Virus record (IMG/VR): IMGVR_UViG_3300027985_000843
Span: 248,001-312,000 of that record
Strand: one strand, 5' to 3'
Length of the DNA: 64,000 nt
Origin: a virus
The translations under genes were made by a program, and so were the position numbers. Of this stretch, positions 17,250 through 18,640 are shown in pieces (within the stretch, counting starts at the first letter, position 1; every line of letters starts with the position of its first letter). The notes below the pieces were generated by a model, which saw only the letters and a program-made list of their open reading frames with translations, searched no databases and was not told the origin of the DNA.

Positions 17250-17389
17250 CGGCCGTCCCGGAGTCGAACCGGATGCTTGTAAGGGTCGAAGGAGCTGCTT
17301 CCCTTGCGAGAAGCGAGGTACGACACTGGAAAGAGCTTTTGGCTCCAGCTCCTAAATGCTGGCGGGGGACCCTCCCCCTATGACGGCCA
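17250..17389 (-). tRNA. insert-bearing tRNA, anticodon TAG or TTA
   Basis: Acceptor (TGGCCGT/ACGGCCG) and T-arm are present; anticodon stem CCAGC/GCTGG closes an 8-nt loop ATTTAGGA, one longer than normal, so the anticodon could be TAG (Leu) or TTA. A 71-nt structured insert replaces the variable loop (17274-17344). The D-arm is irregular. An 8-nt loop is the classic form of +1 frameshift suppressor tRNAs. Confidence 0.6.
17274..17344 (-). ncRNA. variable-region insert, copy B
   Basis: Order: P1 mini-hairpin (AGC...GCT), CTTTCCAG, P2 strand GTCG, ACCTCG, P3 CTTC/GAAG, P2' CGAC, CTTACAAGC, then T-stem. Same layout as copies A, C and D. Confidence 0.65.
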
Positions 17390-17447
17390 AGGGGCTTCGA
17401 CGTGTGATCCCACTCAACCCTGAAGTCAAATGCACGCCGAAGCTTGG

Positions 17448-17555
17448 TGGACCGCCCTGGAATTGAACCAGGTGTGCTTGTGAGAACCGCCGAGCAGCAT
17501 TGCCGAAGCAACGCGAGGTGGTGGTGCTGGTAAGTGGAATCCTATCCAGCGGCCC
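17448..17555 (-). ncRNA. tRNA-like minihelix with insert (no D or anticodon arm)
   Basis: A 7-bp acceptor (GGGCCGC/GCGGTCC, one wobble) plus a perfect T-arm and encoded CCA, but between them lies only the insert: P1 TGGA/TCCA, CTTACCAG, P3 GTTGC-TTCG-GCAAT and the terminal CTCACAAGC. D-arm and anticodon arm are absent. It may be a deletion derivative of the neighbouring Lys gene (same acceptor) or a purpose-built tRNA-like RNA. Confidence 0.55.
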
Positions 17556-17674
17556 ATTGCCCGTCTTTCCGGGCTGTCACCTCAATCCCTCTGAATCTGC
17601 CAGGACTTCGAGGGTCGTCGAGGTTACGAGTTGGTGGTCCCCGTTACCACGCCATACCCACGTGCGAGAACCAG

Positions 17675-17814
17675 CGGGCCGCCCTGGATTCGAACCAGGT
17701 GTTGCTTGTAAGAGTCGTGAGGCAGCTCCCCTTTCAAGGAGCGAGGTACGACGCTGGAAAGAGCGTTGTGCTCCAGCTTAAGAGGCTGGTGGTCTGCCAT
17801 TGACCGTGCGGCCC
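17675..17814 (-). tRNA. tRNA-Lys(CTT) with 73-nt variable-region insert
   Basis: Perfect acceptor GGGCCGC/GCGGCCC, D-stem GGTC/GACC, anticodon stem CCAGC/GCTGG with loop CTCTTAA, and T-stem CCTGG/CCAGG. Between the anticodon stem and T-stem lie 73 nt (17700-17772) instead of about 5. A conventional Lys(CTT) gene also exists at 27.8 kb. No CCA encoded. Confidence 0.85.
17700..17772 (-). ncRNA. variable-region insert, copy A
   Basis: P1 AGC/GCT, CTCTTTCCAG, P2 GTCGT/ACGAC, ACCTCG, P3 CTCC/GGAG, terminal TCTTACAAGC. Every helix in this copy pairs perfectly. Confidence 0.7.
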
Positions 17815-17922
17815 AAACGCCCCATTCTCTCGGCTCAGTCCCATGGCACCGTTTGTGGTCCGATGGCTACCTCGCCAAGACAGCGTGAGGCACGCTGTAG
17901 GAGTCGCGATCTCCTAAATTTT

Positions 17923-18085
17923 GAAGCACTCGATGGATACGCCTGGGTAGCTTTGATGCTTGCGCCTAATGCAAGTGCCTGTACCAGTTCGGCTACTCCG
18001 CCATTGAGCGGGCCTCGCGGCCCTGGTGGCGGAGGTGGGATTCGAACCCACATATGCGTGTAAGACGAGTCGAGCTGAGTGCTTC
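17923..18085 (-). tRNA. circularly permuted tRNA-Leu(TAG)
   Basis: In transcript order: insert 3' part (from 18085), T-arm GTGGG/CCCAC with loop TTCGAAT (18035-18051), acceptor CTCCGCC, A73 and CCA (18024-18034), a 21-nt linker with hairpin GGGCC-GCGA-GGCCC, then acceptor GGCGGAG, Leu-type D-arm, anticodon arm CTTGC/GCAAG with loop ATTAGGC (17959-17975), and insert 5' part to 17923. The acceptor halves pair 7/7, and the two broken P3 strands (GAGTGCTTC and GAAGCACTC) pair 9/9. Confidence 0.85.
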
Positions 18086-18087
18086 GG

Positions 18088-18228
18088 AGGGCCATCCTGG
18101 AGTTGAACCAGAGAGCTTGTAAGGGCTGCGTGGCAGCTCCCCGTGAAGGGAGCGAGGTGCAACACTGGGTGAGCGTTGTATGCTCCTCCGTGGAAGGGAG
18201 GTGAGGAACCGATCCTCTGTGATGGCCC
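18088..18228 (-). tRNA. tRNA-Gly(TCC) with 72-nt variable-region insert
   Basis: Acceptor GGGCCAT/ATGGCCC, anticodon stem CCTCC/GGAGG, loop CTTCCAC, T-arm TCTGG/CCAGG. The insert occupies 18113-18184. An ordinary Gly(TCC) is present at 10.1 kb, so this copy is redundant in decoding. Confidence 0.82.
18113..18184 (-). ncRNA. variable-region insert, copy C
   Basis: P2 is GTTGC/GCAGC and P3 CTCCC/GGGGAG, different bases from copy A but the same pairing; conserved CCAG, ACCTCG and CCTTACAAGC. Confidence 0.68.
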
Positions 18229-18397
18229 GAAGCTCGTCTCTCCGAGCTGTCACCCCGTCACGAAACTCGACCAAAGGTACACGCAGGTTTCCAATCTGCA
18301 TTGTCCTGGTGCCCCAGGACTGAACCAGAAGCAGAGTTAACTCGACACCGAGGTTGTGAGAAAGTGGAGGCGTTCGAGGCGAAGTGCTGGATTTTGA

Positions 18398-18469
18398 TGC
18401 TAGAGACAGGAATCGAACCTGTAACCAACGGCTTGATAGGCCGTAGCTCTACCTATGAGCTACTTTAGC
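18398..18469 (-). tRNA. tRNA with anticodon ATC
   Basis: 72-nt cloverleaf; anticodon stem ACGGC/GCCGT, loop CTATCAA. A34 in an Asp-box anticodon is highly unusual in bacteria, and GTC tRNAs for Asp are present at 14.4 and 24.4 kb. One acceptor mismatch; no CCA. Confidence 0.65.
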
Positions 18470-18499
18470 GTGTGAGCACGTCTGGGCTGAACGCCTTAG

Positions 18500-18640
18500 A
18501 GGGGAAGTCTGGAGTCGAACCAGATTTGGCTTGTAAGGGCTGCTTGGCTGTCTCCCTTTCGAGAGACGATGCGCAACACTGGAAGAGCTGTTTAGCTCCC
18601 GCTTTCCTGGCGGGTGGGGCACCGTGCCCCTAACTTCCCC
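18500..18640 (-). tRNA. tRNA(GGA, Ser-like) with 73-nt insert, A33
   Basis: Acceptor GGGGAAG/CTTCCCC, D-stem GGGG/CCCC, anticodon stem CCCGC/GCGGG, loop CAGGAAA. U33 is replaced by A, as in the permuted Phe gene. The insert lies at 18525-18597. Amino-acid identity is uncertain. Confidence 0.7.
18525..18597 (-). ncRNA. variable-region insert, copy D
   Basis: P1 AGCT/AGCT, CTCTTCCAG, P2 GTTGC/GCAGC, GCATCG, P3 GTCTC/GAGAC, CCTTACAAGC. Confidence 0.68.

Follow-up and report, generated by a model that had tools for sequence, protein, structure and literature searches.

The window analysed here is a 64,000-nt stretch (G000:C1:248001-312000) of a 371,739-nt IMG/VR virus record (G000). It contains ~45 tRNA genes on the minus strand and eight copies (A–H) of a structured RNA element, which we call the module. 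In copies A–E, the P3 stem of the module is capped by a loop, while copies F, G, and H are circularly permuted. Copies A–F and H are located between the tRNA-Pro(ggg) gene and a ThiF-like gene, and copy G lies 7 kb off. A gene for a 624-aa VWA-domain protein (22078..23952, minus strand) is found 3.4 kb from the cluster on the same strand.

Copies A (18501..18640), B (18089..18228), C (17676..17814), and D (17251..17388), all on the minus strand, are the four tRNA-like genes in which an earlier sequence-only reading had noticed an insert between the anticodon stem and the T-stem. The inserts are ~70–75 nt long and follow the order given by that reading, P1, CCAG, P2, TCG, P3, P2', CTTACAAGC, with the P2 and P3 sequences varying between copies as it described. 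The sequence CTTACAAGC occurs four times in the entire record, always in this cluster. In copy A, the anticodon loop is CAGGAAA and lacks U33, and the module in its variable region (18529..18580, minus strand) consists of P2, P3 with a GAAA loop, P2', and CTTACAAGC. The anticodons of copies B and C are TCC and CTT, respectively, and copy D has an 8-nt anticodon loop. The Rfam tRNA model spans copy C with the insert placed in the variable loop (43.2 bits), and the folding z-scores of B and C are -4.6 and -3.5. Copy E (17445..17555, minus strand) is a shortened tRNA-like RNA with an ACCA end but without an anticodon arm, so its module sits between a single hairpin and the T-arm.

The permuted copies are F (17923..18085), G (25653..25796), and H (18368..18496), also on the minus strand. 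In both F and G, a 3' half made of T-arm, acceptor, and CCA precedes a linker and the 5' half, and the two halves of the “insert” are found at the outer ends, where they pair with each other via P2 and P3. Copy F reads P3', P2', CTTACAC, T-arm, acceptor 3' strand with ACCA, and linker, and continues with the acceptor 5' strand, D-arm, anticodon arm (TAG), CCAG, P2, TCG, and P3. Copy G has the anticodon loop CAGAAAA; its first base is directly 3' of the CCA of tRNA-Leu(cag) and its last base is 6 nt before tRNA-Gly. The minimum free energy fold of G shows an 8-bp P3, a bulged C, P2, the T-arm, a capped acceptor, the D-arm, and the anticodon arm. Copy H is an end-attached permuted form in which the module halves P3'/P2'/CTCACAC and CCAG/P2/TCG/P3 lie on either side of a middle part that ARAGORN calls tRNA-Asp(atc) (18398-18469). 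Folding G and H alone gives the end-paired structure (z -3.4 for G and -4.5 for H with the proposed stem). The sequence-only reading had counted seven copies, including E (17448) and the “opened” ones. This was an undercount, as E and all three permuted units are members of the family. The reading had also missed that each opened copy is a complete tRNA-like gene in circularly permuted order, with two half-inserts that pair together.

Several other features of the window are worth recording. Between H and B, a tRNA-like stretch (18220-18370, minus strand) has a further T-arm (18329) and may be a degenerate unit. A lone T-arm at 12080 (12000-12117, minus strand) lies beside tRNA-Ile without an assignable tRNA body, and a tRNA-like gene at 14455-14541 (minus strand) has ~14 extra nt in its anticodon loop (AAGCGTAAGCTGTC...) and a weak Rfam tRNA match (26.3 bits). 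The protein encoded at 13103-14269 (minus strand) is EF-Tu-like, with three EF-Tu Pfam domains and ~54% identity to bacterial EF-Tu. Adjoining the cluster, the gene for the ThiF-like protein (18749-19327, minus strand) overlaps that for a LAGLIDADG endonuclease (19324-20268, minus strand); Virus Rctr197k also has a ThiF-like gene close to its tRNA cluster. A 304-aa protein (25890-26804, minus strand) has a sub-threshold match to a zinc metallopeptidase-type domain (ATLF) and a PHROG metallo-protease match.

The module core can be written as C-[P2, 8 bp]-(N)MC-UC-[G-P3...P3'-C]-A-N4-5-[P2']-YACAM-GC, and the consensus from 84 distinct elements is C-[NG N6]-(N)MC-UC-[G P3 ... P3' C]-A-N4-5-[N6 CN]-YACAM-G(C). 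The final GC was part of most search patterns; when this requirement was relaxed, GC was still the commonest ending, with few GA and GT. A pattern joining the 3' motif to a T-arm found 22 stretches in IMG/VR, mostly from jumbo phages with the same upstream structure, and 23 occurrences in 14 records against none in the reversed control. Additional patterns recovered more. The module occurs ~84 times in IMG/VR jumbo-phage loci, and shuffled sequence is essentially devoid of it. Across ~60 IMG/VR loci, a structural detector at a score of at least 24 returned 20 linear and 58 permuted elements compared with 0–0.6 per shuffled set, and at a score of at least 20 it returned 35 linear elements compared with 0.4.

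Since the detector rewarded most of the P2 and P3 pairing, pairing counts at those positions are not independent evidence. The first (outermost) P2 pair was neither required nor rewarded, and it is paired in 79 of the 84 elements (A-U 65, U-A 8, G-C 6), compared with a mean of 56 and a maximum of 67 in 20,000 permutations. Together with the excess of detector hits over shuffled sequence, this supports the earlier proposal that the structure covaries and is under selection. The MAFFT alignment of the linear copies displaced P3', and for this reason the counts were made on script-registered columns and no covariance model was used.

Beyond these loci, a permuted copy that lacks annotation is present in the named relative Virus Rctr197k (KX853510). 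A BLAST search of copy C against named phages gave only tRNA T-arm and chance matches. One scan of bacterial genome contigs gave 32 matches and no convincing copy, with the possible exception of L099. This Sorangium MAG contig, perhaps a phage contig, has a possible end-attached copy on the minus strand at ~1230. The element is absent from tRNA clusters fetched around several other tRNA groups of these phages.

The scaffolds that carry the module are specialised, and ordinary tRNAs are not being interrupted. The forms with the module in the variable loop share the D-arm ACA-GRGGAUCGGUUCCYC whatever their anticodon. In these loci, 24 of the 26 T-arm contexts with the GRGGAUCGGUUCCYC part also have the module; among these 24, the match from a bacterial MAG (L102) is doubtful. 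Permuted forms of the variable-loop type have a class II type D-arm, and acceptor-attached forms have a class I D-arm. By hand count, a purine is found at position 33 in ~17 of 50 units compared with 1 of 480 ordinary tRNAs, a ratio that is approximate because ARAGORN may under-report odd loops. U33 does not characterise the family as it does ordinary tRNAs, although more than half of the units keep it. Several acceptors are capped by UUCG, GAAA, or GCAA tetraloops and some have only 3–6 bp. On the other hand, the variable-loop copies have intact 7-bp acceptors with CYR or CCA tails, the CYR tails resembling those of this phage's ordinary tRNAs, and NCCA-like tails precede the linker in about half of the permuted variable-region copies. 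The end-attached forms have no consistent 5' boundary or 5' splice site. A recurrent A x C mismatch, 1–2 pairs from the acceptor/T-stem junction, has been observed in the end-attached forms at 18398-18469 and in L010, L031, L052, and L073. The module also borders ~42-nt non-tRNA segments (L034, minus strand, 4230; L020, 3660; L068, minus strand, 5033), and those of L034 and L020 have AACGTACGT-hairpin-ACAACC in common.

In the 624-aa protein, sequence profiles recognise a VWA domain only; no TROVE match was obtained from Pfam or at the sequence level, and Pfam TROVE is absent from the whole record. A single-sequence structure was too poor in quality for use. An AlphaFold model built from a nine-sequence alignment (pLDDT 72.7, pTM 0.42) has as its best full-length Foldseek match the Ro autoantigen (1yvr; E 6.6e-7, 558 columns), and further top matches are a TROVE domain, 1yvp, the Thermus phage phiLo Ro60, and Rsr (2nvo), over 530–580 columns. 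The TM-scores of these matches are low (0.22–0.26), possibly due to domain placement. VIA-align returned no Ro60 among 50 rows because the VWA domain fills the list, and its rows support the VWA domain alone. When a 63-sequence profile was compared with nine phage TROVE proteins, the last helices (the linker) and the VWA domain aligned (E 1e-4, prob 58). Like Ro60 and Rsr, which combine TROVE and VWA, the protein is predicted to have a helical N-terminal part and a C-terminal VWA domain, but it is longer and its sequence similarity to them is very low. We call the protein Ro60-like, on the basis of its fold only, rather than Ro60, and we propose it as the partner of the RNA.

The RNA and the protein gene occur together. 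Homologues of the VWA protein at 47–60% identity are present in most of the 28 records, with one additional distant match at 28%. The VWA protein is missing from Lak-A1, G014, and G017, which also lack the element pattern, and from G024, where a Pfam TROVE protein takes its place. A search with the protein only gave 63 loci, 49 of them with full flanks, and in 43 of these 49 an element lies within 10 kb, compared with none of 63 shuffled loci. All but one of 74 elements are on the strand of the VWA protein gene, at a median distance of 4.8 kb. The phages may share ancestry, perhaps as one clade, which weakens the inference from co-occurrence but does not remove it. Two ligases were considered as obligatory partners and rejected: RtcB is found in 14 of 26 records, which fits an RNA-repair setting, and the T4 Rnl1-type RNA ligase in 2 of 26, and the record of the window has no match to either.

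Y RNAs and Ro60 occur in animals, some bacteria, and some phages. In the permuted copies F, G, and H and in ~55 permuted relatives, the 5' and 3' ends pair around the tRNA-like module, while in the linear copies A–E the stem is capped instead. The bacterial Y RNA YrlA is arranged as end stem, T-arm, capped acceptor, D-arm, and anticodon arm, an order shared by the permuted variable-region forms and not by the end-attached or linear ones. Copy F aligns to positions 30–81 of RF02553 and matches the Rfam YrlA consensus of T-arm, capped hairpin, UA, and D-arm, with 20.5 bits and an E-value of 0.037. This is below the gathering score of 69 bits, which no match in the 28 records exceeds. The YrlA covariance model was discarded as a specific detector, as it also matches tandem ordinary tRNAs and at a lenient limit gives matches in 13 of 14 control genomes. 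RNAs with the YrlA layout lie near the Ro60 genes of Caulobacter phage CcrPW, Brevundimonas phage Gurke, csAssE-Sib, and Streptomyces phage GiJojo, with several in tandem in Gurke and GiJojo. Record G024, the one with the Pfam TROVE gene, has one YrlA-layout RNA within its tRNA array.

Like YrlA and the phage Y RNAs, the units described here are sited among tRNA genes; the VWA protein gene close to them is Ro60-like by the fold of its product only. The module stem differs from those of canonical phage Y RNAs in sequence and internal loops, and phage Y RNAs adjoin TROVE/Ro60 genes, whereas the partner proposed here has no detectable TROVE sequence. Compared with YrlA, the family has extra topologies, with the stem either inserted into the variable loop of a tRNA that is open at the acceptor or attached to the acceptor end. 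To our knowledge, no Y RNA topology corresponds to the variable-loop forms with open acceptors, and the linear form is not known from the literature. Ro60 orthologues bind the lower stem of Y RNAs, which in vertebrates is a 7-bp helix with one bulged C that faces a bulge of three nucleotides (PMC4726728). In the module, one bulged C comes after P3 and faces a loop of 4–5 nt. The bulged C of the vertebrate site lies on the other strand than in the module.

Other known systems share some of these features. Permuted tRNA genes of algae and archaea also have the 3' half before the 5' half, but they are processed via bulge-helix-bulge splicing; here the flanks form the conserved stem, and no bulge-helix-bulge was seen by eye at the exon borders in the predicted folds or the consensus. 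The tRNA genes of Lak megaphages have introns (PMC6784885) and are likewise huge-phage tRNA genes with extra sequence. They were set aside as a match, as the tRNA regions of Lak-A1 carry no copy of the module and Lak-A1 has no VWA protein. Sec-like tRNAs and allo-tRNAs have a long variable arm and varied anticodons (PMC7609411), as do the units here. They differ in having extended acceptor branches and no P2–P3 module. A long D-stem with a tiny D-loop is a further likeness between these tRNAs and the units. Two-piece (permuted) tmRNA has a similar order, with the T-arm and acceptor first, but no mRNA-like region was seen here, and copy F scores 22.5 bits with the permuted-tmRNA model against a cut-off of 47.

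The sequence-only reading had left open whether the insert was a new small intron or a retained domain. If it is spliced, the module would be an undescribed ~60-nt intron or circularising element, removed by itself or by enzymes; the linear copies would be cut out of the variable loop, and the permuted copies would be permuted intron–exon units giving circular tRNAs. In three acceptor-inserted units, joining the halves restores a 7-bp acceptor (L026 CCGG|GCG, L025 AGGT|GCA, and L023 GGGT|GAA), and the module also borders the small non-tRNA RNAs of L034, L020, and L068. Due to these two observations, splicing keeps a small share of our belief, and the presence of RtcB in 14 of 26 records would also suit it. 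It is nevertheless disfavoured. In the region, Rfam gives nothing above threshold besides tRNA and thus no known ribozyme or intron, in line with the earlier reading; the group I and group II intron families are likewise absent above cut-off, with one sub-threshold group II match (19.1 bits, E 0.85). The scaffolds, with their unique D-arm and purine 33, are unlike ordinary tRNAs, the end-attached forms have no defined 5' boundary, and many of the products would have 3–6-bp or tetraloop-capped acceptors. Furthermore, the record of the window has neither RtcB nor an Rnl1-type match, and splicing leaves the link to the Ro60-like gene unexplained. The intron proposal is therefore not supported, while the retained domain holds up.

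A retained arm could also belong to functional decoding tRNAs with a giant variable arm, the permuted genes giving two-piece tRNAs joined by P2 and P3 in the manner of two-piece tmRNA. The intact acceptors and CYR or CCA tails of the variable-loop copies, the NCCA-like tails of about half of the permuted variable-region copies, and the tmRNA score of copy F point in this direction. We consider decoding unlikely as well, given that about a third of the units have purine 33, the anticodon arm is missing from copy E, tetraloops close several acceptors, and the ordinary tRNAs of the window already serve most of the same anticodons. The damaged acceptors and odd anticodon loops might alternatively suggest decaying tRNA pseudogenes with a repeated selfish element. 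This is very improbable and already largely contradicted by the covariation and conservation across divergent jumbo phages, the constant genomic neighbours and strand, and the low folding energies (z -3.4 to -4.6).

We consider it likely that the inserts are the retained RNA arm of tRNA mimics that resemble Y RNAs and work with a diverged Ro60-like protein, and not introns. That the element travels with the gene of the Ro60-like protein suggests a Y-RNA-type ribonucleoprotein. Each unit would be a small non-coding RNA that combines a tRNA-like module with a conserved stem (P2, two internal loops, and P3), and the Ro60-like VWA protein would bind it at the P2–P3 stem. The RNAs of F, G, and H would begin and end in P3 with the tRNA-like part circularly permuted, which is the YrlA layout. 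In 33 of 41 cases, the permuted stem starts 3–5 nt past the upstream acceptor, which places it at the 3' end of the preceding tRNA, so that tRNA processing could free the RNA; the ends of F, G, and H are probably released in this way by processing of the flanking tRNAs. Copies A–E have the same elements in the same circular order, but the circle is open at the acceptor and P3 is closed by a loop, which gives them the appearance of a tRNA with a long variable arm. In bacteria, a Y RNA tethers Rsr to PNPase, and the tRNA-like part of YrlA, which in Salmonella is not cut by the anticodon nuclease, has been proposed as its competitive inhibitor (PMC7790460). The tRNA-like part of the phage units may bring enzymes that bind tRNA into the ribonucleoprotein, or it may distract anticodon nucleases as a decoy that they cannot cleave.

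Most likely, this is a system of the Ro60–Y RNA kind known from bacteria and other phages, here in several unexpected shapes. Many jumbo phages of a widespread group would thus maintain tRNA mimics in an array, with at least three topologies and one conserved stem, next to the gene of a proposed Ro60-like partner that escapes recognition by sequence searches. On this reading, automatic annotation miscalls some of these mimics as tRNAs, as at 18398-18469. If the proposed reading is true, it would enlarge the Ro60–Y RNA world and show that Y RNAs can be turned inside out. It would also give a testable reason for the tRNA look-alikes of phages, as platforms for RNA quality control and repair or as decoys for anticodon nucleases.
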